A DNA stretch of 64,000 nt. Origin: Trichocoleus sp. FACHB-46. GTDB lineage: Bacteria; Cyanobacteriota; Cyanobacteriia; FACHB-46. The stretch is from the NCBI RefSeq assembly GCF_014695385.1, contig NZ_JACJOD010000076.1:1-64000 (forward strand). The letters run 5' to 3'. The notes beneath the pieces were generated by a model. It saw nothing but the letters and a program-made list of their open reading frames with translations. It was not told the DNA's origin and ran no database searches. The translations under genes were made by a program, and so were the position numbers. How positions within the stretch are numbered: the first letter of the stretch is position 1; every line of letters begins with the position of its first letter. Below, in pieces: positions 30,466 through 56,199 of the stretch.

Positions 30466-30470
30466 GATAA

Positions 30471-31577
30471 TCAAAAGAAACTCAAAGCTGAATATTGGCC
30501 TGAAGAGGCAGCCGCGACAGGTTCAGGAGAGAGAGATTGTTGGATGCGATCTTTGAAATGGTTGAGATGCTCCAGACTGGCGATCGCCAAATCAAAGTCA
30601 ATGCCAAAATCAATTAGGCAGGCGACTTCATCGACCCCAATCTCCCGAAGGCGTTGAATCACGGGTTCACAGGTTTCAACGGTGCCAATTAGGGTTTTGC
30701 CGTCGAGATAACGCTCAAAGCCAAATTGCAGCAGCGTCTCAATATCGCTTTCGGTAAATTGCGCTAGGTTAACAGGCAGATTCTCTCGCTTGACCAGGCT
30801 TTCAATCAGGTCAAAGTGAGTTTTCAAATAATTACAAAAAGGAGCTTGTACCTGCCGCTTCACCTGCTCATAGTCCTCACCGATAAAGGTATGCATCATT
30901 AGCGAGACCTTTCCTGCCGCTGGGTCGTGACCATGCTGAACACGAGATTGCCGATAAAGCTGGATTTTAGGTGCCAGTTCTTCTACCGATGAGTGCAGCA
31001 GGGAAGTTAAGACATTGGCACCGAGCCGTCCTGCTTCTGTAAAGGTGTAATCAGAATGGCAGGTAATCCAAATCGGCAGTTTGGGCTGGACTGGGCGAGG
31101 CAAGGTGCGAACTTGCACAGGCTGCCCCGATCCATTTTTGCGTTCAATGGTTTGACCTTCCCAGAGTCGTTGCACCGTCTCGATTTCGCGCCACATCACG
31201 GCTTGGCGATCGCGGTAATTTTCGGGGAGCAACACAAAGTCATCCACATGCCAGCCATAGGCAAAGGTGAGACCCACCCGACCGTTGGATAAGTTATCCA
31301 CCACTGCCCATTCTTCGGCCACTCGCAACGGCTCTTGCAGAGGCAAAACAACACTGCCCGATCGCAACTGCACCCGCTCGGTAATCATCGCCAGAGCGGC
31401 ATTAATCACTGCTGGGTTGGGATACAGTCCGCCAAAATCATGAAAGTGTCGTTCGGGAATCCAGATAGAAGAAAACCCGTGGCGATCAGCGAATTTTGCC
31501 CCTTCGGTCAGGAGCCGATATTTATCGGCACTATGGGTAGAACCGTCGCCAGAGAAGTAGAAGAGACCAAACTGCAT
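30471..31577 (-). CDS. luciferase-like flavin-dependent monooxygenase (MupA/Atu3671 type)
   Basis: A luciferase-like (LLM) flavin oxidoreductase of 368 residues from the chosen ATG at 31577; the upstream in-frame ATG at 31637 would overlap the PKS gene. QFGLFYFSGDG at the start, GFSSIWIPERHFHDFGGLYPNP and VGLTFAYGWHVDDF are typical of the MupA/Atu3671 subgroup, which is found inside or next to NRPS/PKS genes. These enzymes use reduced FMN and oxygen. It lies between the PKS gene (8 bases away) and the Thr-module gene. An attractive guess is hydroxylation of the carrier-bound intermediate near the ketide, but the position of oxidation cannot be read from sequence. It is not an ornithine N-hydroxylase of the SidA/PvdA family. 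Confidence 0.85.
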   Translation of the reverse strand: MQFGLFYFSGDGSTHSADKYRLLTEGAKFADRHGFSSIWIPERHFHDFGGLYPNPAVINAALAMITERVQLRSGSVVLPLQEPLRVAEEWAVVDNLSNGRVGLTFAYGWHVDDFVLLPENYRDRQAVMWREIETVQRLWEGQTIERKNGSGQPVQVRTLPRPVQPKLPIWITCHSDYTFTEAGRLGANVLTSLLHSSVEELAPKIQLYRQSRVQHGHDPAAGKVSLMMHTFIGEDYEQVKRQVQAPFCNYLKTHFDLIESLVKRENLPVNLAQFTESDIETLLQFGFERYLDGKTLIGTVETCEPVIQRLREIGVDEVACLIDFGIDFDLAIASLEHLNHFKDRIQQSLSPEPVAAASSGQYSALSFF

Positions 31578-31584
31578 GATTAAT

Positions 31585-39200: not shown

Positions 39201-41566
39201 TCTGGATCATCAAGTGATGTGCAATCCACAATTGCCAGTTGGAATGCCAAGTCAGGCTCAATGATCTGCACAGGTTGTTTATCCTGGGAGACAAAGCGAG
39301 TCCGCAGAATTTCATGGTGTTGAGCGATCGCCTGCAAACTCTGCTCTAGCACCGGAACGGATAACGCCCCGGTGAGCTGAATTGCCACGGGCAGATTGTA
39401 GAACGGGCTATCTGGCTCCAGTTGATGCACAAACCAGAGACGTTGTTGGGCAAAAGATAAGGGATAGGTGTCAGCAATCGCATCCCGTTTGGGAATGCCT
39501 GAGTGCGATCGCTCAACCCCTTCTCCAATCTGAGCTAGAATCCGCTGTGTCAATTCTGTCAGACTCACATCATCTAAGAAATCGATCGCGGAAATCGTCA
39601 CTCCTAGATTGATCTCTAGATCATTTTTCAGCGTCACCGCCATAATCGAGTCAATCCCCAGCGTGTTTAGGGGTTGCTTATGATTGATTTGATCAGGATG
39701 CACCCCTACCACAGAAGCCACCTGCCGCTGGAGTTCAGCTTGCAAAACAGCTTGCCGGTCTGCGGGAGCGATCGCCAACAAGCCAGCGCGAGTTAATTCA
39801 TTCGCTGCACTGCCATCGTGTATGACATCGATAATGCTGCTACCCGCAACAGCTAAACTTCCCGCTAAAAAATCAGCGCGACAGGCGCGACGTTGAATTT
39901 TGCCACTGGTGGTTTTGGGGATATGTCCCGGTTTTAGCAACACCACCGCATACACCTGCACTTCAAAAGCTTGGGCGATCGCGCCTCGAATCGCGCCTGT
40001 CACTTCCTCAATGTCAGGCTGCTGGCGAAACTCTAATTCCTGAACGACAACTAAGCGTTCTTCCTGATTTACCTCAACGGTAAACGCAGCCCCAGCTCCA
40101 GGTCTCAAAGAAGGATGGCTTTGCTCGGTAGTACGCTCAATATCTTGCGGATAGAAATTGCGACCGCGAATGATGACCAGGTCTTTTACCCGTCCGGTGA
40201 TAAACAGTTCTCCCTCTTGCAAGAAGCCGAGATCTCCAGTTCTCAAGAAGGGGCCTGCACCTGTATCCGCTAGATAAGCCCCAAAAGTTGACTGAGTTTC
40301 TTCAGGGCGATTCCAGTAGCCTTGACCGACGCTGGGGCCTGCTACCCAGACTTCCCCGACTTGACCATCTATACAGGACGTCAAGTTTTGGGGATGGGCG
40401 ATCGCCACGGTTTGATCCGGGATACTTTGACCGCAACCCACCAGCAAGCGCGTGTCCTCGGTTTCGGATGTGGCCTCAAGGATCTGATCTTGCTCTAGGG
40501 CGATCGCTTGCACTGTTTTGATTGGTGGTGCGCTCGCAGATGAACCGCCTGATACCATTAATGTTGCCTCTGCCATGCCATAGCAAGGATAAAAGGCTTC
40601 TGGGCGAAATCCGCATTCGGCAAAGGTTTCAGCAAAGGCTTTCAGTGTTTCACCCCGCACAGGTTCTGCACCATTAAAGGCTACTTTCCAGTTGCTTAAA
40701 TCCAGAGTTTGTCGCTGTTCTGGCGTGATTTTTTGCGCACAAAGGTCGTAGGCAAAATTGGGGCCGCCGCTGGTCGTGGCTTTGTAGCGGGAGATCGCCT
40801 GGAGCCAACGATAAGGGCGCTGCAAAAACGTCGCAGGTGGCATCAGCACACAAGGAAACCCACCATAGAGCGGTTGTAAGATCCCCCCGATCAAGCCCAT
40901 ATCGTGATAAGCAGGCAACCAGGAGACAAACACGCTCTCAGGAGTATGCCCCATATATTGATAGGTCGTAGCGGCGTTGTGGAGTAAGTTGCCGTGGCTG
41001 ACCATCACCCCCTTGGGAGTACCGGTGGAGCCAGAAGTATATTGTAGAAAAGCCAGCGTATCCTTGTCTAATTGCGGCTCTTGCCAATCGTTTGCCAGAT
41101 GCTTTGGTAGTTGATCAGTCGTCAACCATTGCAGCGAATCTAGTGCCGTATGCTCGCTTAGCAAAGATTGAATCTTATCAACCAAACTAGAAGTGGTGAG
41201 GGCGATCGCAGCTTCGGCATCCTGCACCATGCTGAGGATTCGAGGGGTATTGCGAGCATTGCGGGGGGGATACGCCGGAACTGCTACAACCCCTGCATAG
41301 AGACAGCCAAAGAAGGCGGTTAGATAATCTAACCCAGGGGGATATAACAGTAATGCCCGTTCTCCTTGCAAGTTCAAGGCTTGGAGTTGAGCCGCGATCG
41401 CTCGACTTCGTTGAGCAAAGTCTGCATAAGTGAGCCAGTCTGACTCAGTTTCGCCATCCGCTAAGAATGTAAATGCTTGTTGGTTCGATTGCTGGGATGC
41501 CCGCTCACAGAGCAGTTCCATCATCGTTGAATAACCAATTGCCAATTCCAGATGATGCTGAGTCAC
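36203..41566 (-). CDS. FAAL-ACP-C-A-PCP, starter module of the lipopeptide
   Basis: A 1787-residue starter protein. Fatty acyl-AMP ligase (about 1-580; QYTSGSTGTPKGVMVSHGN; GRNFYPQDIE) activates a free fatty acid and loads it on the ACP (LGIDSIMAVTLKN, Ser near 639). C (FHHTIADGWS near 832) couples it to the residue activated by the A domain (YTSGSTG near 1304), held on the PCP (FFELGGHSLL near 1714). The A-domain code by eye is D-V-E-N-M-G-A-V-T-K, which I cannot assign; D-x-E-N-x-G recalls ornithine codes but not closely. The GTG start at 41566 is chosen because AAGGAAGG stands five bases upstream. It is the first gene of the minus-strand operon, with a Fur-box-like promoter about 270 bases upstream. 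Confidence 0.93.
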   Translation of the reverse strand: MTQHHLELAIGYSTMMELLCERASQQSNQQAFTFLADGETESDWLTYADFAQRSRAIAAQLQALNLQGERALLLYPPGLDYLTAFFGCLYAGVVAVPAYPPRNARNTPRILSMVQDAEAAIALTTSSLVDKIQSLLSEHTALDSLQWLTTDQLPKHLANDWQEPQLDKDTLAFLQYTSGSTGTPKGVMVSHGNLLHNAATTYQYMGHTPESVFVSWLPAYHDMGLIGGILQPLYGGFPCVLMPPATFLQRPYRWLQAISRYKATTSGGPNFAYDLCAQKITPEQRQTLDLSNWKVAFNGAEPVRGETLKAFAETFAECGFRPEAFYPCYGMAEATLMVSGGSSASAPPIKTVQAIALEQDQILEATSETEDTRLLVGCGQSIPDQTVAIAHPQNLTSCIDGQVGEVWVAGPSVGQGYWNRPEETQSTFGAYLADTGAGPFLRTGDLGFLQEGELFITGRVKDLVIIRGRNFYPQDIERTTEQSHPSLRPGAGAAFTVEVNQEERLVVVQELEFRQQPDIEEVTGAIRGAIAQAFEVQVYAVVLLKPGHIPKTTSGKIQRRACRADFLAGSLAVAGSSIIDVIHDGSAANELTRAGLLAIAPADRQAVLQAELQRQVASVVGVHPDQINHKQPLNTLGIDSIMAVTLKNDLEINLGVTISAIDFLDDVSLTELTQRILAQIGEGVERSHSGIPKRDAIADTYPLSFAQQRLWFVHQLEPDSPFYNLPVAIQLTGALSVPVLEQSLQAIAQHHEILRTRFVSQDKQPVQIIEPDLAFQLAIVDCTSLDDPETELRSLLQSEASKPFDLEQYPLWRVQLLRLSDTHHVLLLAFHHTIADGWSMTRVLIEELAVHYEAIQLGQAPALPGLPIQYVDFALWQRQQWQTGAFQPHQAYWQQQLEGLPVLQLPTTYPRPAVPSFRGAKLAFTLSADQTTALKALSQREGVTLFMTLLAAFKVLLYRYSGQTDLLVGSPIANRNQPALEDLMGCFVNTIVLRTELSGNPSFQELLKRVRRVALDAYLHQDLPFDQLVQQLHPDRDISRNPFFQTWFSLQNMPASSLEFAGLSLESLDVDTGTSQFDLSLDMEERHGTLMGWVEYSTDLFDQVAIARFVEHFQTLLTSILQTPDQSIATLPILPSAERQQLLVDWNSEAHDLPQLPFQERFEQQAIATPDMPALVDAETSLTYRELNERVNQLTHYLQSLGVAKSTFVGVCLERSPNLIISILAILKAGGAYVPLDPNYPEERLLFMLKDAQVAVLLTQQDITLSVPSSLQRINLDTSWMEVAQYPIITPPCAATEDDLAYLIYTSGSTGKPKGVMIKRRSLTHFVDSAIQIYEIKPGDRVLQFASISFDVAVEEIFPTLAAGATLVLRTGSMIESMASFLQQCRHQAITVLNLPTAFWQQLVHALSTATLTLPESVRLVMIGSEKALPDSVHLWKQHANSQIRLVNAYGPTETTVTATYCDIAGPRAVPFEQEVPIGRSLPNVQLYVLDTHQQPVPIGIPAELYIGGAGIARGYLNRPDLTNERFIPNPFQALPHSSSLLPPHSSLLYKTGDRVRYRTDGHLEFLGRVDNQAKIRGFRIELGEIEAALAQHLNVQEALVVAREDQPGQVRLVAYVVLVNSNPEAQQELRDFLTQRLPAYMLPAAYVMLDAFPLTPNGKIDRRSLPAPEGDRPTLEVNYVAPQNELEQAIAGIWQTALAVEQVGIDDNFFELGGHSLLVIQVQHALQSSLKREIAVIDLFKYPTVRSLAQYLNQQDIPTDLQPVYDRAQRRKAALQDRQASRSARR
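36920..36962. repeat. heptamer repeat in A-domain loop
   Basis: AGTGAGGAGTGAGGGGGGAG then GAGTGAGGAGGAGTGAGG encodes LPHSSSLLPPHSSLL immediately before YKTGDRVRY (motif A7). This is the fourth A domain carrying the heptamer-type repeat at exactly this loop. Confidence 0.75.
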
Positions 41567-41838
41567 ACTTTACCTTCCTTGTAGATGCATCAGGCAGAAA
41601 ACTGAGGGCTGATGTGAGTCATCACTCCTCGAGCCGATTGGAACTGGGCGTGACGATCGCGATCCCGTTGGTCATTCCAAAATTCAAGCCAAGGAGATGA
41701 GTCAATAGATTGCTAAAAATTCCGTTGAATGACTGATTGCCTTGTCAGGCAAGGCTTCTAGCGTTTTAGCCAGCCATGATGTAATCGCTAAATTGAAACA
41801 TTTCTAGAATTTCAAGATAAACACAAACTGTTGGTAAA

Positions 41839-41853
41839 TGACATTAGTTCTCA
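41839..41853. promoter_or_regulatory. Fur-box-like site for the biosynthetic operon
   Basis: TGACATT-A-GTTCTCA, a 7-1-7 inverted repeat matching TGAGAAT-N-ATTCTCA at 11 of 14 positions. It covers the predicted minus-strand -10 element, as expected for iron-dependent repression by Fur. Assigned by pattern only. Confidence 0.55.
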
Positions 41854-41869
41854 ATTAATATAGGTTCAA
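41841..41869 (-). promoter_or_regulatory. predicted promoter of the NRPS/PKS operon
   Basis: On the minus strand TTGAAC (41869-41864) is followed after 17 bases by TAATGT (41846-41841). The start codon of the FAAL gene is about 270 bases downstream, leaving a long 5' leader. Both boxes are imperfect; the overlap with a Fur-like site supports the call. Confidence 0.45.
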
Positions 41870-42018
41870 CTTAAACCCTTGGCAACCCCTAAAAGAAAAT
41901 TATTGTCAACTAGGAGCAAGTTTTATCTAGCCATCCATCCAATCTCCTACCTTTGAACCCACTTGGAATATCTTCCAAGTACTGGCAGTGAATGGAATAC
42001 AGGATTGAATCAAATTTC

Positions 42019-42046
42019 TTGACACAATTTTGTTGAGAACTATTCT
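42019..42046 (+). promoter_or_regulatory. predicted promoter of the receptor operon
   Basis: TTGACA (42019-42024), a 16-base spacer, then TATTCT (42041-42046). The -10 element lies inside the Fur-like inverted repeat at 42034-42048. The leader to the receptor ATG would be about 160 bases. Confidence 0.55.
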
Positions 42047-42048
42047 AA
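42034..42048. promoter_or_regulatory. Fur-box-like site for the receptor operon
   Basis: TGAGAAC-T-ATTCTAA matches the 7-1-7 form TGAGAAT-N-ATTCTCA at 12 of 14 positions and overlaps the -10 box. This is the best of three related sites in the 650-base divergent region. Confidence 0.65.
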
Positions 42049-42088
42049 GTGTAGTAAGATGCCATTCAGACTTCCTATGACTTCTAAT

Positions 42089-42103
42089 TGAGAATTAGTC
42101 TAG
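42089..42103. promoter_or_regulatory. third Fur-like half-site, embedded in a palindrome
   Basis: TGAGAAT-T-AGTCTAG: one half is perfect, the other weak. The same place holds a perfect CTAATT-GAG-AATTAG palindrome (42084-42098). It lies downstream of the predicted receptor promoter, where a bound repressor would block elongation. Confidence 0.4.
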
Positions 42104-42215
42104 TCAAGGTTCTAGATACCCAGCGAGTTCATCGTTGATGAGGTGTCTCAGAATATGCTGCTGATAAATCAGCCAGTTGCAGTTAACGTGCTTTTCATTA
42201 GATACGTGAGGAGAT

Positions 42216-44810
42216 ATGACCAGTAGACCGCAGTTCCTGAGTTGTAGCCTTGGCCTGCTTGGGGTGGTGCCCGCTCTGATTGCTAGCCCTGCTTGGGCAC
42301 AGAGCAGCCAAATTACAAACGTTCAACTAAATCCCAAGGATGGCGGCTTAGAAGTTGTCTTGGAAACCAGCAATGGTGCTGCGGTTCGAGCTTTGACCAC
42401 CAGTTCTGGAAATACGCTCACCACGGATATCACAAATGCACAACTGCGCTTAGCGGGCCAAGAATCTTTTCGTCAAACCAATCCAGCGACGGGTATTGCC
42501 GAAGTCACTGTCACCTCACTGACCACAAATAGCGTACGGGTGACAATCGTTGGAGAGTCGGCTGTCCCCATCAGTGCGCTAACTCGTCAGGGAAATACAG
42601 TATTTTTAAACATCAATTCTGCGGGCGCGATCGCGACTGAAACATCTCCCACAGAATCCAACACGACAGAATCTGCCACCACTGAAACAAATACAACCGA
42701 GGCAGATACAACCGGGGCAGATACTGAAACCACCACAGAAGCGGAAGCTACTACTGAAGACGATAGTGCCGCAGATAGTAGCGCTGATGATGAGAGCGCT
42801 GAGGGTGAGAGTGATGCAATTCGGATTGTCGCGACCGATGATGAGGAGGAAGGTTACACAGTTAGACGCGCCACCTCTGCCACCAGAACAGAAGCTCCGC
42901 TGCGAGATACACCCCGTTCAATCCAGGTGGTACCAGAGCAAGTCTTAGAAGATCAGCGAGCAATTCGCGTTGGGGAGGCGCTCCAGAACGTTGCGGGTGT
43001 CGCTCAAGATGATAGCTTTGGAGGAACGCGCGATCGCTTTACCATTCGCGGATTCTCTCAGGACACCTTTTTGCGGAATGGCTTCCGCCAAAACCAACGC
43101 AGCTTACGAGAAAGCGTCAACGTTGAGCGGATTGAAGTTTTGCGCGGCCCAGCTTCGGTTCTCTATGGACAGCTAGAACCTGGCGGGGTAGTCAACCTGG
43201 TTACTGAGCAACCCTTATTTGATCCCGCTTATAGTGCTGAGTTATCGGTTGGTAGTTTTGGGCTGTTCCGTCCCAGCGTAGACCTAACAGGCCCAGTTAA
43301 TAACGATGGTTCGGTGCGCTATCGCCTCAACGCTGTGTTTGAAGGCGGCGGTAACTTCCGCGATTTTGATCAAGATACCGATCGCTTCTTTGTGGCTCCT
43401 GTTCTGGCTTGGGATATTGGCGATCGCACCTCTGTAGTGTTTGAGGCTGACTACCTCAAAGACAAGCGCCCCTTTGACCGAGGCATTGTCGCCATTGGTG
43501 AAGGAATTGCCGATATCCCCTACGATCGCGTGTTGGGTCATCCCGATGACGAAGGTGAAGTTGAAGAATTTTCGGTTGGTTACCAGCTAGAACATGAACT
43601 CAACGATAACTGGAAAATCCGCAACGGTTTACGGTTTACCAAGGCGGATACCTTTGACTACCGCGCTGACTCCTGGTTTATTCAAGATAGCGGTCAACTC
43701 GATCGCCGCTTCTTATCTAACGATGACGAGTCAGACACCCTAGACGTGCAGACCAACATCACCGGGAAGTTTTCGACGGGTGCGATCGACCACACCCTCT
43801 TGGTTGGGGTAGATTTTGGTCGGACATCGCGAGAAGGGACACAAAAATCTTTACCTGGTGATCCTGACTTCCCGATTGATATCTTTAATCCGGTTTATGG
43901 CGATCGCCCTGATATCTCGGAACTGACTGAGCCAGTTCGGGACGATGGCAGTCGGATCAATACGGTAGGGCTTTATCTGCAAGACCAAATTGACCTGACT
44001 GATAACTTGATCTTGCTTGCGGGTGGACGCATCGACTTCTTTGATCAATCCACCACCAACAACTTGTCAGGCCGAGAGTTTGAGCAGGACGATAATGCCT
44101 TCAGTCCACAAGTTGGTTTGGTCTACCAGCCAATTGAACCGATTTCTCTTTATGGCAGCTTCAGCCGCTCCTTTGTCCCCTCTCGATCCATCCGGGCCGA
44201 CGGCTCTCCCCTAGATCCCGAACGTGGTACTCAGTATGAAGTTGGGGTGCGGGGTGAGTTTCTAGATGGTCGGTTGGTTACGAACTTAGCTGCTTTTGAG
44301 CTGACGAAAACCAACATTGCCACCCGTGACCCCAACAACAGACGCTTTAGCGTGCCTGTCGGTGAAGTGCGTAGCCGAGGGATTGAACTGGATGTCACCG
44401 GAGAGCTAGCTCCAGGTTGGAATGTCATTGCCTCCTATGCCAACATTGATGCCGAAATCACCAAAGATAACTTGTTGACCGTAGGCAATCGGCTGACCAA
44501 CGTTCCCCGCAACAGTGGCAGCTTATGGTCTACCTATGAGATTCAGAGCGGCAACTTGCAAGGCTTCGGCTTTGGGGCTGGCTTGTTCTTTGTGGGCGAT
44601 CGCGCAGGGGATCTCGATGCTACCTTTGAGCTACCTAGCTATGTCCGCACCGATGCGGTTGTCTTCTACCGTCGGGATAACTGGCGAGCTGCGATTAACA
44701 TCAAGAACCTGTTTGATATCAATTATGTCGAGAACAGTGAAGGCTTCCGCGAATATATCAGCCCCGGCGAGCCCCTCACGATCATTGGTTCCTTGTCTGT
44801 ATCGTTCTAA
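42216..44810 (+). CDS. TonB-dependent siderophore receptor with AMIN domain
   Basis: An 864-residue outer-membrane receptor. The signal peptide ends near SPAWAQS (about 30). An AMIN domain follows (about 32-140), then a Thr/Glu/Asp-rich spacer (about 145-205), a TonB-box-like AIRIVAT, the plug (TPRSIQVVPEQVLEDQRA; ERIEVLRGPASVLYGQLEPG) and a beta-barrel ending in VSF with the C-terminal phenylalanine needed for BAM insertion. AMIN-headed receptors are characteristic of cyanobacteria. GAGGAG just before the ATG supports the start. It is divergent from the NRPS operon behind Fur-like sites and is the likely importer of the cluster's own ferric siderophore. Confidence 0.95.
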   Translation: MTSRPQFLSCSLGLLGVVPALIASPAWAQSSQITNVQLNPKDGGLEVVLETSNGAAVRALTTSSGNTLTTDITNAQLRLAGQESFRQTNPATGIAEVTVTSLTTNSVRVTIVGESAVPISALTRQGNTVFLNINSAGAIATETSPTESNTTESATTETNTTEADTTGADTETTTEAEATTEDDSAADSSADDESAEGESDAIRIVATDDEEEGYTVRRATSATRTEAPLRDTPRSIQVVPEQVLEDQRAIRVGEALQNVAGVAQDDSFGGTRDRFTIRGFSQDTFLRNGFRQNQRSLRESVNVERIEVLRGPASVLYGQLEPGGVVNLVTEQPLFDPAYSAELSVGSFGLFRPSVDLTGPVNNDGSVRYRLNAVFEGGGNFRDFDQDTDRFFVAPVLAWDIGDRTSVVFEADYLKDKRPFDRGIVAIGEGIADIPYDRVLGHPDDEGEVEEFSVGYQLEHELNDNWKIRNGLRFTKADTFDYRADSWFIQDSGQLDRRFLSNDDESDTLDVQTNITGKFSTGAIDHTLLVGVDFGRTSREGTQKSLPGDPDFPIDIFNPVYGDRPDISELTEPVRDDGSRINTVGLYLQDQIDLTDNLILLAGGRIDFFDQSTTNNLSGREFEQDDNAFSPQVGLVYQPIEPISLYGSFSRSFVPSRSIRADGSPLDPERGTQYEVGVRGEFLDGRLVTNLAAFELTKTNIATRDPNNRRFSVPVGEVRSRGIELDVTGELAPGWNVIASYANIDAEITKDNLLTVGNRLTNVPRNSGSLWSTYEIQSGNLQGFGFGAGLFFVGDRAGDLDATFELPSYVRTDAVVFYRRDNWRAAINIKNLFDINYVENSEGFREYISPGEPLTIIGSLSVSF

Positions 44811-44827
44811 GGATACCTAACCCCCAG

Positions 44828-44850
44828 CCCCTTCCCTATGAGGGAAGGGG
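44828..44850. repeat. hairpin repeat after the receptor gene
   Basis: CCCCTTCCCT, loop ATG, AGGGAAGGGG: a perfect 10-bp stem 18 bases after the receptor stop. It could cap the receptor mRNA. The ATG in the loop opens a reading frame into the next gene, but that is unlikely to be its true start. Related hairpins lie at 11891 and 47695. Confidence 0.7.
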
Positions 44851-44933
44851 AGCTAGAGATATTTGATCCATATTTTACGTATGTCATGAACATGCTCAGG
44901 GTGGTTCGACAACTCAAGTTCTACTCACAAGAG

Positions 44934-45977
44934 ATGGGAAAGATCTGGCGATCGCAACTGCCATCAGTCATGCAGGGATATCGCGATCGCTGGCTGCGGT
45001 TGAGTCTGCTGCTCTTGCTCACCCTCATGACAACAGTTGCCTGTGGTCGAGATGTCGTTTCTGATTCTGACTCTCAACCGTCATTAAGCACTCCTACCAC
45101 TACCGAGACGCGATCGGTTCAACATGCGATGGGGACGACTCAAGTGCCTGCCGCTCCCCAGCGAGTTGTGTCTTTGAGTTGGTTAGATACTGTGCTCTCC
45201 CTCGGTGTACAACCGATTGGTAGCAACCAAGTGAATGACTCTTATCTGCAGGAGCGGGCGGCGGGTATTCCCAATGTGGGGCGGTCTGGTGCTCCGAGTC
45301 TAGAAAAGATTTTGGCACTCAAGCCTGATCTGATTTTGGGGTGGCAGACAGACCACAAAGCCATCTATCCGCAATTGTCTCGCATTGCGTCTACGGTAAT
45401 TGATAGTGGAGAGGGTAGCGGAGCTTGGAAGAAGACATTGCAACTTTATGCCCAAGCCCTTGGCAAAACGGCTGAAGCTGAGCAACTAATGGCCAAGTAC
45501 AAAGCCCGTTTAGCAGAGTTCAAACAAAAGATGGGTGCCTCTGGTTCCCAGCCAGATCAAACCCAGGTATCAGTGGTGCGTGTTTATCCAGATGGCATCA
45601 GCCTTTATTTAAAGGACTCCTTCTGTGGCACGATTTTGGCGGATGCGGGGTTATCTCGTCCGTCTACTCAAAGTTTGAGTGCTTCAGAAGCAAAGGCTTT
45701 GGGTGGCAATCCGGTGCAGTTGTCGATTAGTCGAGAGCTATTGAGTCAGGCAGATGGAGATGTCTTGTTTGTCTGGACAGGGGAGAATGATGCCAAATCA
45801 GCTCAGGCTGCTCAGAAGCAATTGGAGCAACTCAAGTCTGATCCCCTCTGGGCGAATCTAAAAGCTGTGAAACAAAACCGTGTTTATCAAGTACCCAAGT
45901 ACTGGATTGGCAGTGGCCCGATCGCAGCCAATTTGGTTATTGATGACTTGTTCAAATATTTGGTCGATGAGGCTTAG
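44934..45977 (+). CDS. iron-siderophore ABC transporter substrate-binding lipoprotein (FecB-like)
   Basis: A periplasmic binding protein of the FecB/FhuD (Peripla_BP_2) type. A hydrophobic run (LRLSLLLLLTLMTTVACG) ends in a lipobox with the lipidated cysteine. PQRVVSLSWLDTVLSLGVQP and IGSNQV start the first lobe, GRSGAPSLEKILALKPDLIL follows, and the second lobe ends with VYQVPKYWIGSG. It would hand the ferric siderophore from the receptor to the permeases encoded at 53246-55367. Start is uncertain: ATGs at 44838 (in a hairpin loop), 44886, 44934 and 44967 are all in frame and none has a clear ribosome site; 44934 leaves a usual lipoprotein leader. The next gene starts two bases after the stop. 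Confidence 0.9.
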   Translation: MGKIWRSQLPSVMQGYRDRWLRLSLLLLLTLMTTVACGRDVVSDSDSQPSLSTPTTTETRSVQHAMGTTQVPAAPQRVVSLSWLDTVLSLGVQPIGSNQVNDSYLQERAAGIPNVGRSGAPSLEKILALKPDLILGWQTDHKAIYPQLSRIASTVIDSGEGSGAWKKTLQLYAQALGKTAEAEQLMAKYKARLAEFKQKMGASGSQPDQTQVSVVRVYPDGISLYLKDSFCGTILADAGLSRPSTQSLSASEAKALGGNPVQLSISRELLSQADGDVLFVWTGENDAKSAQAAQKQLEQLKSDPLWANLKAVKQNRVYQVPKYWIGSGPIAANLVIDDLFKYLVDEA

Positions 45978-45979
45978 AT

Positions 45980-46330
45980 ATGTCTCAGCACACCTTGTTT
46001 ATTTGTAAAGGCTGTGGTCCTGACCGCAAGGGCAGTTCGCCTCATCTCCTCGATGAAGTATTGGCATCTAATGCAGATCAAGCATCCGGGTTGCAGATTG
46101 AAGCAACAAGTTGTTTATGGACCTGCGATCGCCCCTGCTCTGCCTCCTTGATCTGTCCCGGCAAGTACAGCTATCACTTCACAGATTTGTCACCGGATCA
46201 AGCCAGCGATCTGTTGACTTTTGCCGCTCAGTACCAGGACAGTGGAGATGGCTATGTCAAACCGCCCAAGATGCCAGAATCGTTGCTGCCTAAACTGCTA
46301 GTCCGTATTCCTTCGCCTCCGGCTGCTTGA
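45980..46330 (+). CDS. DUF1636 ferredoxin-like metal-binding protein
   Basis: A 116-residue protein of the DUF1636 family. Cysteines at 9, 12, 45, 49, 53 and 59 (FICKGCG; CLWTCDRPCSASLIC) suggest a metal site or a [2Fe-2S] cluster on a thioredoxin-like ferredoxin fold. There is no signal peptide, so it is cytoplasmic. It is packed between the binding-protein gene (2 bases) and the exporter gene (contiguous), hence co-transcribed with siderophore transport genes. A role in reduction or release of iron from the imported complex, or in iron sensing, is inference; I know of no proven function for the family. Confidence 0.75.
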   Translation: MSQHTLFICKGCGPDRKGSSPHLLDEVLASNADQASGLQIEATSCLWTCDRPCSASLICPGKYSYHFTDLSPDQASDLLTFAAQYQDSGDGYVKPPKMPESLLPKLLVRIPSPPAA

Positions 46331-47686
46331 ATGGAACCCAATCAACCTACTAGCCTGCGGAAATTTCTCATTCTTTGGAGTGGGCAGGTAGCCTCAGTGC
46401 TCGGCACAGAGATGACCAACTTTGCGATCACGCTTTGGGCTTGGGAACTCACAGGTCAGGCAACTCCGCTAGCTTTGATTTTTTTCTTTACTCGCACTCC
46501 GAAGGTAATTGCGGCTTCCTTTGCAGGTGTACTCGTCGATCGCTGGAATCGCAAGCAATTGATGATGATCGGCGATGGCATGGCAGGGATATCTACGGTG
46601 GTGCTTCTCAGCTTGCTGCTCACTGATCAGTTAGCGATTTGGCATCTGTATGTTGCGGGAGCAGTGAATGGTCTGTTTGGTTACTTCCAAGACCTGGCCT
46701 ATTCTACTTCCATGTCGCAGATTGTGCCTAAGCAGCACTATGCCAGAGCCACCGCGATGGATTCCTATCTCACCTATTCCGGTTCGGCAATCTTAGCTCC
46801 GGCGATCGCAGGTATTCTCTATCCACTGATTAAGCTTCCAGGCATCCTCCTGATTGATCTGGTCACTTTTCTGATAGCGGTTGGCACCGTTTGGTTTACG
46901 ACCATTCCTCAACCCAAAGTTGAAGCGAAACCGTTCTCCAGAGAGCAGCTTTGGGAAGAGTTTACCTTTGGTTTTCGCTATATTTTCCGCCATCCCAGTT
47001 TATTAGCAATTCTCCTGTTTTTATTAAATTCTAATCTCCTTACCAATGCAGCCTGGGCGATTCAACCTGTGATGATCTTGGCGCGTAGTCAAGATAATGC
47101 CACAGCCCTTGCTAGTGTTCAAGCCGCGATCGGGATTGGGGGCGTGGTTGGCGGTGTCCTGCTGAGTGTCTGGGGCGGTCCCAAACGACGCATTCATGGT
47201 CTACTCCTAGGCCAAACTTTTGGTGAACTCAGCAGTGTATTTTTGGGATTATCAAACTCCTTACCGCTTTGGATGGGCACAGGGTTTCTGGCTGCTATCT
47301 TTTCTCCGTTTATTGGTAGCTCCAATCAAGCGATTTGGCTCTCCAAGGTTGATCCAGCGGTTCAGGGAAAGGTGTTTGCCTCGCGTTATCTGATTGCGCA
47401 ATTGGCGGCACCTCTAGGACTGGCGATCGCGGGTCCCTTAGCTGATAAAGTCTTTGAGCCTGCCATGCAACCCGGAGGCTTTCTCACGCCTCTTTTTAGC
47501 GGTATCTTCGGCACAGGAAACGGTGCAGGCATGGCGCTGCAATTCACTTTATTCTCTATTTTAGGCGTGCTGGTAGGTGTAGGCGGATATGCTTTTCGTA
47601 CTTTACGAGATGTAGAAACACTGGTACCTGATTATGACATTAAGACCTCTGACCCAACCCGTTCTCTAGTAGGAAAGGAGCGCTAA
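46331..47686 (+). CDS. MFS exporter, EntS-like (siderophore export)
   Basis: A 451-residue major facilitator protein of the EntS/MFS_3 type with about 12 hydrophobic segments. The start SLRKFLILWSGQVASVLGTE and the loop FAGVLVDRWNRKQLMM (motif A equivalent) are typical. It follows the DUF1636 gene with no gap. Relatives in enterobacteria (EntS) and in cyanobacterial schizokinen clusters export siderophores across the inner membrane; the context points to the same role here. A hairpin repeat follows nine bases after the stop. Confidence 0.9.
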   Translation: MEPNQPTSLRKFLILWSGQVASVLGTEMTNFAITLWAWELTGQATPLALIFFFTRTPKVIAASFAGVLVDRWNRKQLMMIGDGMAGISTVVLLSLLLTDQLAIWHLYVAGAVNGLFGYFQDLAYSTSMSQIVPKQHYARATAMDSYLTYSGSAILAPAIAGILYPLIKLPGILLIDLVTFLIAVGTVWFTTIPQPKVEAKPFSREQLWEEFTFGFRYIFRHPSLLAILLFLLNSNLLTNAAWAIQPVMILARSQDNATALASVQAAIGIGGVVGGVLLSVWGGPKRRIHGLLLGQTFGELSSVFLGLSNSLPLWMGTGFLAAIFSPFIGSSNQAIWLSKVDPAVQGKVFASRYLIAQLAAPLGLAIAGPLADKVFEPAMQPGGFLTPLFSGIFGTGNGAGMALQFTLFSILGVLVGVGGYAFRTLRDVETLVPDYDIKTSDPTRSLVGKER

Positions 47687-47694
47687 GTTCAAAG

Positions 47695-47717
47695 CCCCTC
47701 GCCTGTGAGGCGAGGGG
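47695..47717. repeat. hairpin repeat after the exporter gene
   Basis: CCCCTCGCCT, loop GTG, AGGCGAGGGG: a perfect 10-bp stem with a 3-base loop, same layout as at 44828 but different arm sequence. There is no T-run, so it is not a classical terminator; it may act as an mRNA end or be a dispersed repeat. Confidence 0.65.
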
Positions 47718-47788: not shown

Positions 47789-49918
47789 ATGAAATATTTC
47801 CTTTCTCGCCTGTCTCAGCGGCAACTTATTCGGCTGTACTCATTGCTGCTAGCCATTGTATTGATATTAATCATCATCACCTCTGGCCCGTTGGGTCAAG
47901 CTGCCAGCACCGAGATTTTGTGGGATACCTATGGAGTGCCACATATCTCTAGCAACCGCACACCCGATCTGTTTCGCGCTTTTGGCTGGGCACAGATGCA
48001 GAGCCACGCCAATCTCCTATTGCGGCTCTATGGTCAGGCTCGCGGGCGGGCAGCGGAATACTGGGGCGAAGACTATGCGGAATCGGATCAATGGGTGCGT
48101 AAAATGGGCATCCCAGAGCGATCGCAAGCTTGGTACAAAGCCCAAACGCCCAAGTTTCGCCAATATCTGGATACCTTTGCTGCTGGGATCAACGCCTATG
48201 CCAAAGCTCATCCTGACCAGATCGAGGACGATCTGAAAGCTGTACTTCCTATCTCACCTGTAGATGTGCTGGCACATACTCAGCGAGTACTGCACTTCAC
48301 ATTTGTCGTCAATCCAGAAGAACTGCAAGCGACACTCGCCAAAGCAGATCCCGGAGAACCCGTAGGCGGATCAAATGGTTGGGCGATCGCACCCTCTCAC
48401 TCGGCCAGTGGTAAAGCGATGTTGCTGGCGAACCCCCATCTCCCTTGGGCAGATTTGTTTCTTTGGTACGAAGCTCAAATAACGGCTCTTGGTATCGATG
48501 CTTATGGTGCAACTCTGGTGGGCGTTCCAGTGCTAGCGATCGCCTTTAATGACGCGATGGGCTGGACTCACACCGTCAACACCTATGACGGCTGGGACGC
48601 TTACGCATTAACTTCGCGAGATGGCGGCTATGAGTTTGATGGGCAAGTGCGTCCCTTCGATACGGAGACTCAAACCCTCAAAGTCAAGCAAAAAGATGGT
48701 TCTTGGCAAGAGCAAACCCTAACTATTCAACGCTCGGTGCATGGCCCCGTGGTCGCAGAACCCAAGGGACAAGCGATCGCCCTTCGAGTATCAGGTTTAG
48801 ATAGAGCTAGAGGTTTAGAGCAATGGTGGAAAATGGCCTGCGCCACCAACTTAAGCGAGTTTGAAACAGCTCTCAAGCGTATGCAGCTTCCCATGTTTAC
48901 GGTTCTGTATGCCGATCGCGACGGACATATTCTCAACTTTTTCAATGGTCAAGTTCCGGTTCGCCAAGAAGGTACTTTTGCAGATTGGTCAGGCGTAATT
49001 CCTGGTAATACCTCAAAGACGCTGTGGACTCGTATCCATGCTTACGAAGATCTCCCTCGTGTTGTTGACCCCAAAACCGGTTGGTTGCAAAATGCCAATG
49101 ATGCACCCTGGACAACCACCTTACCCGCAGCCCTAAATCCTGATGATTTTCCCGCTTATATCGCCCCTCGTGATGTCCTTTACTTCCGCGCCCAGCGATC
49201 GCTGCGAATGTTGATGGAAGACCCGAAGATCTCCTTTGAGGAATTGATTCGCTACAAGCACTCCACCCGCATGGAACTAGCCGATCGGATTCTGGATGAT
49301 CTCACGACTGCTGCCAAATCCTCCACTGATCCCCTCATCAAACAAGCGATCGCAGTTTTGCAAAAGTGGGATCGCCAAGCCGAAGCCAAGAGTCGCGGTG
49401 CTGTTCTCTTCAAAGCCTGGAATGATTTAATGGATCGCTCCAAATTATTTGCCATCCCTTGGGATGAGAAATCTCCTCTTACGACCCCAGATGGCTTAGC
49501 TGATCCTGAAGCGGCGATCACTGCTCTCAAAACTGCTGCCACTGAACTTCTCAAGAACTATGGAGCGCTAGATATTGCTTGGGGAGACGTTTTTCGGCTC
49601 AAGTCCGAGGCTAATAATCTGCCTGCTAATGGAGGCCCTGGTGGGTTGGGCATCTTCCGCACTGTCAACTATACCCCTGCCGAGGAAGGCCAGTTTCAAG
49701 CCATCGATGGAGATAGCTTCGTTGCCGTGATCGAATTCTCTAATCCAGTTCGGGCGCAGGCTCTAACCAGCTACGGCAATGCCACCCAGCCCGATATGCT
49801 GCAAGGCAGCGATCAGCTCACCTTGATGTCCCAGAAAAAACTTCGCCCCGTCTGGCGATCGCGTCGGGATATCCTAGCTCATCTGAAATCTCGAACTGTC
49901 AACTTTGGCAAAGACTGA
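47789..49918 (+). CDS. penicillin acylase/PvdQ-family Ntn hydrolase, periplasmic
   Basis: A 709-residue precursor of an N-terminal-nucleophile acylase. A signal anchor (RLYSLLLAIVLILIIITSG) precedes an alpha subunit with DTYGVPHISS and FRAFGWAQMQ. The autoprocessing point is at GGSNGWAIAPS, making Ser195 the nucleophile of the beta subunit; SGKAMLLANPHLPW follows. Known parallel: PvdQ removes the myristoyl group from the pyoverdine precursor in the periplasm. As the cluster opens with a fatty acyl-AMP ligase, this enzyme could trim the acyl tail of the siderophore after export; alternatively it hydrolyses acyl-homoserine lactones. It has its own 100-base upstream gap after the exporter gene. 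Confidence 0.88.
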   Translation: MKYFLSRLSQRQLIRLYSLLLAIVLILIIITSGPLGQAASTEILWDTYGVPHISSNRTPDLFRAFGWAQMQSHANLLLRLYGQARGRAAEYWGEDYAESDQWVRKMGIPERSQAWYKAQTPKFRQYLDTFAAGINAYAKAHPDQIEDDLKAVLPISPVDVLAHTQRVLHFTFVVNPEELQATLAKADPGEPVGGSNGWAIAPSHSASGKAMLLANPHLPWADLFLWYEAQITALGIDAYGATLVGVPVLAIAFNDAMGWTHTVNTYDGWDAYALTSRDGGYEFDGQVRPFDTETQTLKVKQKDGSWQEQTLTIQRSVHGPVVAEPKGQAIALRVSGLDRARGLEQWWKMACATNLSEFETALKRMQLPMFTVLYADRDGHILNFFNGQVPVRQEGTFADWSGVIPGNTSKTLWTRIHAYEDLPRVVDPKTGWLQNANDAPWTTTLPAALNPDDFPAYIAPRDVLYFRAQRSLRMLMEDPKISFEELIRYKHSTRMELADRILDDLTTAAKSSTDPLIKQAIAVLQKWDRQAEAKSRGAVLFKAWNDLMDRSKLFAIPWDEKSPLTTPDGLADPEAAITALKTAATELLKNYGALDIAWGDVFRLKSEANNLPANGGPGGLGIFRTVNYTPAEEGQFQAIDGDSFVAVIEFSNPVRAQALTSYGNATQPDMLQGSDQLTLMSQKKLRPVWRSRRDILAHLKSRTVNFGKD

Positions 49919-50130: not shown

Positions 50131-51830
<1,700 letters not shown>

Positions 51831-52185: not shown

Positions 52186-52836
52186 ATGCTAATTGTTGAA
52201 TTATTTATTGCTGGTGGCATCGTCATGATCCCCTTGGTGGGGTTCTCGATTGTGGCGACTGCCCTGATCATCGAACGTTTGGTTTTTTGGTACCGAGTGA
52301 AGCGGCGGCAAAAGCGGGTGATTCGTGATGTACTACGCATTTACCAACATGACGGTGATGCTGCATTGCTTAAGCTCAAACAAAACGCTGACCTACCGAT
52401 CGCTCGCATTTTTCTAGAAGCTGTGGAAGTCGATCATTTTCCGCCTCATGCCTTTCGTCTGACGATGGAAGGAGCCACCCAAGCAGAGCTACCAACGCTC
52501 AGACGGTTTAACTCACTCTTTGACATGGTGATTGCAATTGCTCCTTTGTTGGGGTTGTTGGGAACCGTTCTAGGTCTGATTCGCTCATTTGCCTCGCTCA
52601 ATTTGGGAAGTGCTGGTAGTGAAACTGCTGTGCAAGTAACATCAGGGATCAGCGAAGCGCTAGTCTCAACGGCGGCGGGCTTAATCGTAGCGCTGTTCAC
52701 TCTCTTCTTTGCCAGTATTTTTCGAGGCTTTTATAAGCGGCAAATTGCAGCCATTCAAGAATATTGCAGCCAACTTGAGGTTCTGCATTTGGGTCGTTAT
52801 GAAGGTTTTAGCTCAGTCTCAAAAGTATTGCAGTAG
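52186..52836 (+). CDS. exbB: ExbB-type proton channel subunit
   Basis: A 216-residue MotA/TolQ/ExbB-family inner-membrane protein with three hydrophobic segments (start ELFIAGGIVMIPLVGFSIV; IAPLLGLLGTVLGLIRSF; ISEALVSTAAGLIVALFTL). The TAAGLIVA segment with its conserved threonine is the proton-path helix. With ExbD and TonB it uses the proton gradient to energise outer-membrane receptors. First gene of a five-gene operon: exbD follows after 6 bases, then two permeases and an ATPase. The grouping with an iron ABC importer supports a siderophore role rather than a motility one. Confidence 0.93.
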   Translation: MLIVELFIAGGIVMIPLVGFSIVATALIIERLVFWYRVKRRQKRVIRDVLRIYQHDGDAALLKLKQNADLPIARIFLEAVEVDHFPPHAFRLTMEGATQAELPTLRRFNSLFDMVIAIAPLLGLLGTVLGLIRSFASLNLGSAGSETAVQVTSGISEALVSTAAGLIVALFTLFFASIFRGFYKRQIAAIQEYCSQLEVLHLGRYEGFSSVSKVLQ

Positions 52837-52842
52837 GCGGTT

Positions 52843-53244
52843 ATGAACATTCCTGAAGAGGCGGATGACATTCCCCAAATTAATATTGTCCCGATGATTG
52901 ATGTCATCTTTGCAATTTTGACATTCTTCATCATGTCATCTTTGTTTTTGACTCGCTCTGAGGGTCTACCTGTGAACCTACCCAAGGCACAGACCGCTCA
53001 ATCACAGCAGCAAAGCAAGATGGCAGTCACGGTGGATGAGAAAGGAAATGTATTTCTAAATCGCCAACCGATTACGGTTCAAGAGCTACCAGCAAAAGTG
53101 AAAGCGGCGATGGCGAACAACTCAGAAGCGTTAGTGGTGGTTAATGCTGATGAAAGGGTTCCACATGGTCAGGTGATTACTGTCATGGATCAGTTAAGAA
53201 CCGTTCAAGGTGTGAAGCTAGGAATTGCAACTCGTCGTCCTTAA
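52843..53244 (+). CDS. exbD: ExbD-type biopolymer transport protein
   Basis: A 133-residue ExbD/TolR protein: a short cytoplasmic start, one membrane helix with the essential aspartate (NIVPMIDVIFAILTFFIM, Asp20) and a periplasmic domain ending VMDQLRTVQGVKLGIATR. The length is usual for the family. Partner of ExbB six bases upstream. The next gene (permease) begins one base after the stop if the ATG at 53246 is used. Confidence 0.94.
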   Translation: MNIPEEADDIPQINIVPMIDVIFAILTFFIMSSLFLTRSEGLPVNLPKAQTAQSQQQSKMAVTVDEKGNVFLNRQPITVQELPAKVKAAMANNSEALVVVNADERVPHGQVITVMDQLRTVQGVKLGIATRRP

Positions 53245-53245
53245 C

Positions 53246-54301
53246 ATGGTGAACAAGGAGATGAGGATATGGGGAGAGGATGGCAGGTCCTCGGCTAGGG
53301 GCAAGCATCGACCCCATAAGTTCCAGCTTGTCGGTCTGGTTGTGGGAATTGTTCTGTTAATTGGCTGTTTCATCGCCAGCATTACCTGGGGCGCAGCCGA
53401 TGTTAATCCCAGCACTGTGTGGCAAGCCTTAACGGCTTTTGATGGTTCCACCAATCACTTAATTATCACGAACGTACGATTGCCGAGAGCCTTGGTGGCG
53501 CTGCTGGTCGGAGCTGCGTTGGCTGTGGCAGGCGCTCTCATGCAAGGCTTAACTCGCAACCCTCTAGCCGATCCTGGCATTTTGGGCATTAGTGCTGGGG
53601 CGGCTTTAGCTGTGGTGCTATCGACGTTTTTCTTGGGAACTGTCTCCGTGCAGGTGCAGGCTTGGGTGGCTTTTGCTGGAGGAGCGATCGCGGCGATTAG
53701 TGTCTATCTCTTAGGTTCTGTCGGACGCAGTGGCAGCACCCCCCTCAAACTAATTTTGGCGGGATCTGTGTTGAGCTATCTGTTATTTTCGCTCACCACC
53801 GGAACTTTAATTCTCAGCCAGCGCACTTTAGATGAAGTACGGTTTTGGCTGGCAGGTTCAGTCGCCGGACGCGATCTCAACGTCCTCTTACAGATTCTCC
53901 CTTACCTCCTGGTTGGCTTCATCTTGGCCTTTGGTATGGGCAAACAGATAACAGCTCTGACATTGGGGGAAGATGTCGCGAAAGGACTAGGGCTGCAAAC
54001 TGGCTGGATCAAGGCGATCGCGGCAATGGTGGTGGTGCTGCTTGCAGGTAGCGCTGTAGCATTAGCAGGCCCGATTGGCTTCATCGGTTTGGTAGTGCCT
54101 CACATGGTGCGCTTTTGGGTAGGAGTCGATTATCGTTGGTTGCTGCCTCATGCAGCTGTGTGGGGGGCGATTTTACTGTCTCTTGCTGATCTCGCGGCCC
54201 GCTTAGTCATCAAACCCCAGGAGCTACCCGTTGGCATTATGACCGCTTTGGTCGGGGCTCCATTTTTTATCTACTTGGCGCGATCGCAAGTCAAACGGTA
54301 A
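53246..54301 (+). CDS. iron-siderophore ABC transporter permease 1 (FecCD family)
   Basis: A FecCD/BtuC-type permease of about 350 residues with some nine to ten hydrophobic segments. The motifs [37 protein letters not shown], and PIGFIGLVVPHMVR (contact with the ATPase) are present. I chose the ATG at 53246 over an in-frame TTG at 53225 that overlaps exbD; a further ATG at 53261 is possible. It is followed after 10 bases by a second permease, so the channel is a heterodimer. Confidence 0.92.
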   Translation: MVNKEMRIWGEDGRSSARGKHRPHKFQLVGLVVGIVLLIGCFIASITWGAADVNPSTVWQALTAFDGSTNHLIITNVRLPRALVALLVGAALAVAGALMQGLTRNPLADPGILGISAGAALAVVLSTFFLGTVSVQVQAWVAFAGGAIAAISVYLLGSVGRSGSTPLKLILAGSVLSYLLFSLTTGTLILSQRTLDEVRFWLAGSVAGRDLNVLLQILPYLLVGFILAFGMGKQITALTLGEDVAKGLGLQTGWIKAIAAMVVVLLAGSAVALAGPIGFIGLVVPHMVRFWVGVDYRWLLPHAAVWGAILLSLADLAARLVIKPQELPVGIMTALVGAPFFIYLARSQVKR

Positions 54302-54311
54302 AAGGAATGCA

Positions 54312-55367
54312 ATGAAACCAATAGAACTGCCTTGGCTAGTCATTCGTTCCTCCGCTTGGCCGCTCTCTTTTAAGATCAACCGCCGAGTGCCACTGGTGCT
54401 CTTGGGGCTTACAGTTGCGACGTTGCTGGTCATGGTCTGGAGCGTCAGCTATGGCGAATATCCCATTGCTCCCCTAGATGTTATTAAAAGTATTTTAGGA
54501 TTGCCAACTACCAATCCTGATGATGGTTTTGTGATCAACACCTTACGCTTGCCCCGCGTCATCGTAGCGTTTTTGGTAGGCACTGGGTTAGCGATCGCCG
54601 GAACCATCCTACAAGGACTCACTCGTAATCCCTTGGCATCTCCAGAAATTGTGGGTGTACAAGCTGGGGCAGGCTTAGCAGCAGTAGCTCTGATTGTACT
54701 ATTTCCCTCACTTCCCGCCTTCGCTTTACCCATTGCTGCCTTTGCAGGTGCTTTGGTCGCAGCGTTGCTAGTTTATGGTTTGGCTTGGGATCGAGGTGCA
54801 GCACCCATTCGCTTAATTTTGGTTGGCGTGGGTGTAGCGGCGATTGCCTCGGCTCTAAGTAGTTTGTTGATTACCTTTGGTAATATTGAGGATGTCAGTC
54901 AAGCCTTGGTGTGGTTAGCTGGCAGCGTCTATGGCCGAACTTGGGAGCATGTGCAAGCGTTACTTCCTTGGTTGGGTGTGTTTATTCCACTCTCTTTGCT
55001 TTGTGCTCGTGATTTAAATACGCTCCATTTAGGAGATGAGGTTGCCCGTGGTTTAGGCGTTCCGATCGAGCGGCAGCGGGGCTTATTGCTGATCACTTGT
55101 GTGGCTCTATCGGGAGCAAGTGTAGCGACAGCAGGTACAATCGGGTTTGTGGGTCTAATGTCACCCCACTTAGCGCGTCAGTTAGTCGGTCCTGCCCATG
55201 AAGGACTGCTACCAACCGCAGCTTTAGTGGGTGGATTGATGGTAGCTCTCGCTGACTTTTTGGGCCGATCGCTCTTTGCCCCCATCGAACTGCCCTGTGG
55301 GGTGATTACTGCTGTAGTGGGTGCGCCCTATTTTTTCTACCTGCTCTATCGAAACCGGAATGCATAA
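54312..55367 (+). CDS. iron-siderophore ABC transporter permease 2 (FecCD family)
   Basis: A 351-residue FecCD-family permease, paralogous to the gene before it. [36 protein letters not shown] and [16 protein letters not shown] are the equivalent motifs. The 3' end overlaps the start of the ATPase gene by 8 bases (ATGCATAA), which indicates coupled translation and a matched complex. Confidence 0.93.
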
Positions 55368-56199
55368 CAGCACCTCAATGGAATCAGCACTCACCGCTCG
55401 CAAACTCACCCTGGCATACGATCGCGCAACCATTATTCGAGATTTGCATGTAGACATTCCAGCCCATCAAATCACTGCTTTGGTTGGTCCTAACGGCTGT
55501 GGCAAATCTACGTTGCTCAAGGGACTCGCCCGATTAATCAAGCCTCAGAGTGGTGTGGTGTATCTCGATAGCGCCGCGATCGCTAAGCTCTCCACCAAAG
55601 AAGTCGCCAAGCGCTTGGGCATGCTGCCCCAAAACCCATCAGCTCCCGAAGGTTTAACGGTGCGCGAATTAGTCGCACAAGGGCGCTATCCTCACCAAAG
55701 CTGGTTGCAACAATGGTCAAAAGAAGATGAACAGTTGACCGAGCAGGCGCTAGTAATTACAGGGATGACCGAGCTGAGCGATCGCCCTCTAGATAGCCTG
55801 TCGGGAGGACAGCGCCAGCGGGCCTGGATTGCAATGGCTTTAGCTCAAAACACAGACATTCTATTACTGGATGAACCCACTACATTTCTAGATCTAGCGC
55901 ATCAAATCGAAGTTCTAGATTTGCTGTATGAACTGAACCAAACCCAAGGCCGCACGATCGTCATGGTGCTGCATGATTTAAACCAAGCTTGTCGCTATGC
56001 AGATTATTTAGTGGTGATGCGGCAAGGAAATATCTATGCTCAGGGTGTGCCGCCAGAAATCATGACTGAAGCAATGGTAGAAGAGGTGTTTGGGCTAAAG
56101 AGCAGCATTGTCCGCGATCCCGTCGCAGGCACCCCTATGTGCATCCCGATTAGCCAAAAAATGCCTATGAAACGAGACTATGTAGGACAGCAGCTCTAA
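55360..56199 (+). CDS. iron-siderophore ABC transporter ATPase (FecE-like)
   Basis: A cytoplasmic ABC ATPase of about 279 residues. Walker [11 protein letters not shown]-loop LGMLPQNP, signature LSGGQRQRA, Walker [13 protein letters not shown] and the switch histidine in [14 protein letters not shown] are all present. It is of the FepC/FecE class. The start is taken at the ATG at 55360 that overlaps the permease stop; 55378 is an alternative. It closes the operon; the 200 bases after it hold no gene I recognise, then an IS630 remnant. Confidence 0.94.

Follow-up and report, generated by a model that had tools for sequence, protein, structure and literature searches.

A GL-7-ACA-type acylase encoded with a FAAL-initiated siderophore cluster in cyanobacteria: a probable role in removal of the fatty-acyl tail

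The Siderophore Locus

The window, as we call the whole stretch of 64,000 nucleotides that was analysed from the cyanobacterium Trichocoleus sp. FACHB-46 (contig NZ_JACJOD010000076.1), holds the following genes and features:

1363..2823, minus strand: GSA-type aminotransferase
2804..7243, minus strand: last NRPS, with a C-terminal thioester reductase (NAD_binding_4)
7243..11856, minus strand: NRPS, A-domain code DLTKIGEVGK
11934..19817, minus strand: NRPS with two A domains, codes DILQLGMIWK and DPRHCGVQIK
19814..24394, minus strand: NRPS, A-domain code DLTKIGHVGK
24531..25586, minus strand: TauD-family dioxygenase
25603..30474, minus strand: NRPS, A-domain code DFWNIGMVHK
30471..31637, minus strand: MupA/Atu3671-type luciferase-like monooxygenase (TIGR04020 above cut-off)
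31585..36156, minus strand: PKS with domains KS-AT-KR-ACP
36203..41566, minus strand: starter NRPS with domains FAAL-ACP-C-A-PCP, joining a fatty acyl group to residue 1 via an amide
41567..42215, no strand: divergent promoter region between the FAAL and TonB-receptor (TBDR) genes, with a Fur-like site, AGAAAATTATTGTCA, at 41894-41908
42216..44810, plus strand: TonB-dependent siderophore receptor with an AMIN domain (TIGR01783 above cut-off)
44838..45977, plus strand: Fe-siderophore periplasmic binding protein (Peripla_BP_2)
45980..46330, plus strand: DUF1636 protein, between the binding protein and the MFS exporter
46331..47686, plus strand: MFS exporter, with curated relatives including TIGR00900 and the enterobactin exporter EntS, below cut-offs
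47789..49918, plus strand: GL-7-ACA-type Ntn acylase (PF01804), predicted to be exported, with Ser195 as nucleophile, His217 (beta23) and Val263 (beta70)
50151..51830, minus strand: probable TonB-like protein, by its position and its proline/glutamate repeats
52186..52836 and 52843..53244, plus strand: ExbB and ExbD, named from sequence, with homologues that recur beside the acylase
53225..56199, plus strand: Fe-siderophore ABC importer of the FecC, FecD, FecE type, named from sequence, with homologues that recur beside the acylase

The initiation of the cluster by a FAAL, claimed in an earlier note on this DNA, was borne out by the first 590 residues of the starter protein, which matched the solved FAALs 7r7g and 3kxw best (683 and 466 bits), against at most 194 bits for NRPS adenylation domains, and which are closer to FAALs than to either A domains or CoA ligases. 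Read in order, the A-domain codes presumably stand for no match (residue 1), Thr (DFWNIGMVHK), Asp (DLTKIGHVGK), Gly (DILQLGMIWK), no match again (DPRHCGVQIK), Asn/Asp (DLTKIGEVGK) and, in the last A domain of the cluster, Ala. The TauD dioxygenase is probably an Asp beta-hydroxylase. The terminal thioester reductase lies beside the GSA-type aminotransferase (1363-7243), an arrangement that would suit a peptide with an amine end; the aminotransferase probably aminates the aldehyde released by the reductase, and the pair recurs in relatives. The Atu3671-type monooxygenase is common to the window, the cyanochelin B plasmid and an Agrobacterium cluster.

On the transport side, DUF1636 recurs beside receptor and binding protein genes among relatives. 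The product of 50151-51830, a probable TonB-like protein, gave no match in the Pfam and NCBIfam searches; opposite its repeats runs a long antisense ORF (50218-51267) that mirrors them. The MFS gene ends 102 bp upstream of the acylase gene, and the latter does come right after the exporter gene, as previously noted. A perfect hairpin without a T run (CCCCTCGCC-n5-GGCGAGGGG, 47695-47717), which has one further copy in the genome, lies in this gap and may uncouple the acylase gene from those before it; this gap of its own, with a strong hairpin, counts against assuming operon membership. An MFS gene directly before the acylase is not a general rule, since such an arrangement (within 1.5 kb, same strand) occurs at only 2 of 80 loci and in none of 37 regions beyond the window.

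Signs of iron control are weak. The Fur-like site of the divergent promoter has one mismatch to TGAWAATNATTNTCA and two to its W variant, no such motif lies directly before the acylase gene, the strict 19-base Fur box gave no match, and the looser 15-base form occurs four times in the window versus 3.35 expected. Across genomes, motifs with up to three mismatches precede the FAAL gene in 21 of 31 cases (7 expected) and, with less enrichment, the acylase gene in 33 of 101 (19 expected), both weak signals measured against plain shuffles that do not preserve dinucleotides.

The Acylase and Its Active Site

The acylase gene is an uninterrupted frame of 709 codons with an ATG start, and the 6.56-Mb source genome encodes no PF01804 protein besides its product. 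Penicil_amidase (PF01804) is also its sole Pfam family, with a profile match along the full length of the protein (residues 41-695, 443.9 bits, cut-off 21.3). Ser195 comes directly after Gly193-Gly194 and lines up with the residue that opens the beta chain in the solved Ntn acylases, given that in GL-7-ACA acylase, PvdQ and penicillin G acylase this chain starts at query residues 194-196; the nucleophile is therefore intact, as the earlier note had proposed. His217 and Val263 align with His beta23 and Val beta70 of the solved acylases, positions that we take to have the catalytic roles usually named for them, and a Ser nucleophile after Gly together with His beta23 is found in all 109 siderophore-group sequences. 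The signal anchor also described before is upheld by a strongly hydrophobic N-terminus, MKYFLSRLSQRQLIRLYSLLLAIVLILIIITSGPLGQAAS, the first 40 residues being predicted to form an export signal, which would be cleaved, or a retained anchor; a hydrophobic stretch occupies the same place in 118 of the 122 acylase sequences scored. An AlphaFold model built from 24 aligned window and locus proteins reached a pLDDT of 49.8 and was set aside.

The label 'PvdQ-like' given previously to this enzyme has to be replaced. Its sole curated match is the NCBIfam PvdQ model, at 254.3 bits versus a cut-off of 950, and PvdQ is not its closest solved relative: a GL-7-ACA/cephalosporin acylase (3s8r) comes first with 632 bits versus 192 for PvdQ, at 45% identity over 672 aligned positions versus 26%. 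On these grounds of sequence kinship the acylase is a GL-7-ACA-type enzyme, outside the PvdQ family and no orthologue of PvdQ, although it shares with PvdQ the property of being encoded with an acyl-initiated siderophore NRPS.

The substrate pocket differs from that of its closest solved relatives. Arg57b, Gln50b and Tyr33b of GL-7-ACA acylase, which we take to bind the glutaryl carboxylate, correspond in the alignment to Ala250, Leu243 and Trp226, so that this pocket is absent from the window acylase. Among the 109 siderophore-group sequences, a set that omits two rows shorter than 600 residues (G334, G385) and includes three sequences near or among unlinked acylases in a quick tree (PCC 7424, G306, G062b), the Tyr33b position is always Trp and the Gln50b position always Leu, while position 250 is Ala in 80, Asn in 11, Thr in 10, Glu in 5 and Ser in 2, with one further sequence not itemised. 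The same positions (beta33, beta50, beta57) in PvdQ hold Phe, Leu and Asn; in the siderophore-linked acylases, the polar pocket residues are thus swapped for PvdQ-like, mostly hydrophobic ones. This replacement would fit a fatty-acyl substrate better than a glutaryl one.

Occurrence with Amide-Type Starters

A FAAL-ACP-C starter produces an amide, which an amidase can cleave, whereas a FAAL-ACP-KS starter produces a carbon-carbon link, which it cannot. We surveyed 386 cyanobacterial genomes, of which 36 have the acylase type of the window and 26 a FAAL-ACP-C starter: 23 full-length matches of at least 49% identity (a limit set after viewing the list), G062 (62%, residues 10-793), G334, whose starter is split in two frames, and G385, whose starter is broken. 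The acylase type is present in 25 of the 26 starter genomes versus 10 of the 360 others (Fisher p about 3e-30, treating genomes as independent of shared descent), and any PF01804 acylase in 26 of 26 versus 24 of 360. Four more genomes with FAAL-ACP-C at 40-47% identity (G042, G044, G004, G360) are without the acylase type, bringing the count to 25 of 30. In no case among the 386 genomes was the siderophore-linked acylase type found without a FAAL-ACP-C starter.

The two genes are also close to each other. Of the 25 pairs, 22 have acylase and starter on one contig, separated by 0.9 to about 61 kb; the distance exceeds 400 kb in G125, and in G078 and G278 the two genes lie on separate contigs. 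Siderophore-transport or NRPS/PKS markers surround the acylase in 23 of 24 starter-genome regions of up to 40 kb (G172, G334 and G385 set aside), at 64 of 80 named acylase loci and at 42 of the 49 that span 20 kb or more, the other 7 having no marker within 10 kb; they are found in none of the 10 regions around acylases of starter-less genomes and in 1 of 20 stretches of 20 kb placed arbitrarily in genomes of the same kind. Since the position of the acylase varies from cluster to cluster, be it beside the FAAL and receptor genes, beyond the reductase end or beside ExbBD or Fec genes, its link to them survives rearrangement. Several relatives are on plasmids; on plasmids of Leptolyngbya boryana and Nostoc sp. 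NIES-3756 the acylase gene has NRPS and TonB-receptor genes as neighbours.

In G172, the remaining starter genome, an 808-residue PF01804 acylase of another subfamily (G172:C38, locus L161, 17422-19845, minus strand; 764.7 bits), 24% identical to that of the window, is found within the FAAL-ACP-C cluster, about 21 kb downstream of the FAAL and on the same strand; it takes the place of the usual acylase there. Moreover, acylase and FAAL are both broken in G385 (C1:4569840-4576008) and each split into two frames in G334 (C1:1105786-1115701), as joint decay would give, with sequencing error also possible for G334.

Genomes with carbon-linked starters offer a control. Near-full-length FAAL-ACP-KS proteins were found in 17 genomes, 14 of them without a FAAL-ACP-C starter as defined (G004 has a 40% match), and none of these 14 has a PF01804 protein at E 1e-20; a siderophore context was seen for G289 only of the 14, and by frame length we take many of the controls to be olefin synthases. 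G289 and G284, siderophore clusters by context, have no PF01804 protein in their genomes. In this line, no acylase was found in the 41 kb examined of each of the cyanochelin B plasmid cluster, the Agrobacterium cluster and a Pseudanabaena cluster in which a salicylate synthase is annotated, or in 40 kb of G199 and of G338, the latter genome having at another site a PF01804 gene that belongs to a different subfamily.

The family has members of another kind too. Ten related acylases (43-54% identity) from starter-less genomes show no siderophore genes in the stretches searched, which rules out a siderophore link for every relative and means that the family also does something else. This second set of cyanobacterial GL-7-ACA-type acylases (G014, G076, G080, G093, G105, G143 and others) sits among other genes, as read at four of the ten loci. 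In a quick tree of 59 sequences, nine of the ten group with two others, including the siderophore-linked G306, GL-7-ACA acylase pairs with a Sphingobium sequence away from the bulk of the cyanobacterial ones, and the window acylase lacks a firm position.

Proposed Role and Alternative Explanations

The gene content, the intact catalytic residues, the residues of the pocket and the coupling to amide-type starters were observed directly, and with these in view we consider it likely that the product is a peptide/polyketide siderophore acylated at its first residue, exported and then deacylated by the GL-7-ACA-type periplasmic acylase, which would do the work of PvdQ while belonging to another subfamily. 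The FAAL-ACP-C starter would acylate the first amino acid with a fatty acid, and the MFS protein would carry this precursor across the inner membrane in its acylated form. Once exported, the acylase would cleave itself between Gly194 and Ser195; the latter, now N-terminal, would attack the fatty-acyl amide, leaving a free-amine siderophore for secretion, whose iron form would return through the TonB receptor, the binding protein and the Fec importer. From the acylase being present where there is an acyl amide, absent otherwise, replaced once and never found retained with uptake genes only, we infer periplasmic removal of the tail after export; the self-cleavage, the substrate, the tail-less product and the order of the steps are put forward in the same spirit. 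The lipopeptide siderophore with deacylation by a secreted acylase advanced in the earlier note gains strong and independent support from co-occurrence, co-location, joint decay and the tie to amide starters, with deacylation itself read from these patterns, and loses its PvdQ-like label.

Among the alternatives, the best is that the periplasmic acylase cuts the tail of the imported ferric siderophore, for iron release or recycling, which would lower its affinity or mark it for the latter, the secreted form keeping its tail. We regard it as unlikely: the acylase is often beside Fec, receptor or ExbBD genes and 25 of the 80 named loci have only transport markers in the flanks covered, but uptake genes often spread alone, and cyanobacterial clusters whose tail is carbon-linked or whose product starts from salicylate have the same uptake genes with no acylase nearby. 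The finding that no siderophore-linked acylase type occurs without the starter in 386 genomes favours a role in biosynthesis over one in uptake.

It seems still less probable that the acylase strips the tail from an excess of membrane-active lipopeptide, the acylated form being the working siderophore. Deacylation is reported to act as detoxification for the glidonins through the PvdQ-like GdnD (PMC10587159), but the gene for the latter lies roughly 1 Mb away from its cluster, versus the 22 of 25 pairs clustered here; moreover, the FAAL-ACP-C genomes of low identity are without this acylase type. Quorum quenching by an AHL acylase that is in the cluster by chance would agree with the cleavage of AHLs by PvdQ and other PF01804 enzymes and with the bifunctional label of PvdQ in NCBIfam, but AHL cleavage could be a side activity and neither the tie to FAAL-ACP-C starters nor the joint decay would be explained, which makes this reading very improbable. 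A mobile or chance neighbourhood without shared function, suggested by the several plasmid-borne relatives, is hardly credible when markers are at 1 of 20 arbitrary stretches versus 42 of 49 loci and 23 of 24 regions, and when positions in the clusters differ.

Returning to tail removal before secretion, we lean, with less assurance than for the window itself, towards GL-7-ACA-type acylases being dedicated siderophore tail removers throughout cyanobacteria, the acylase gene predicting a tail-less free-amine product for FAAL-ACP-C metallophore clusters that are at present taken for lipopeptide producers and FAAL-ACP-KS products keeping their tail. If so, an industrial enzyme class would gain a natural substrate, and PvdQ and the GL-7-ACA-type acylases would have been recruited separately to the same job. 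Should acylation followed by deacylation operate in many cyanobacteria through another acylase subfamily and a different starter, this route would have been recruited more than once, structure prediction for a class of cyanobacterial metallophores would change (tail on or off), and one gene would give a genomic rule for tail removal.

Comparison with Known Systems

The link of an acylase to a cyanobacterial siderophore is apparently undescribed so far. No paper making this connection was found in a search of mostly openly accessible literature, and the word 'acylase' is absent from the main text of the papers on cyanochelin B (PMC12628792) and lusichelin (PMC12210259), of reviews on siderophores (PMC6562677) and on FAALs (PMC11837247), of a survey across the phylum (PMC4247773) and of a study on metallophore mining (PMC12971057).

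The cyanochelin B cluster of Leptolyngbya NIES-3755 resembles the window in its FAAL start, luciferase-like monooxygenase, TauD, receptor, binding protein, MFS and Fec genes, and the fabrubactin-type cluster of Agrobacterium pAt15955 in its FAAL, PKS, Atu3671-type monooxygenase, NRPS with reductase and aminotransferase; in both, unlike the window, the FAAL feeds a KS, giving a carbon-linked tail in cyanochelin B, and the 41 kb examined are devoid of an acylase. For fabrubactin, PMC11837247 lists a C10 fatty acid. As for the glidonins, GdnD is described in PMC10587159 as a PvdQ-like acylase that likewise deacylates a nonribosomal lipopeptide, but its gene lies outside the cluster and the lipopeptide is no siderophore.

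With respect to the enzyme itself, the GL-7-ACA/cephalosporin acylases (PDB 3s8r, 1keh) are the closest solved relatives and share length class and catalytic residues, differing in the three pocket residues replaced by Ala, Leu and Trp. The route of acylation followed by deacylation is best known from pyoverdine, and PvdQ of Pseudomonas is, like the window acylase, an exported PF01804 Ntn acylase with a siderophore pathway that starts from a fatty acyl amide, with Leu at beta50 and a residue other than Arg at beta57; the window differs in the low identity of its acylase to PvdQ, in its FAAL-ACP-C starter and in making another siderophore.
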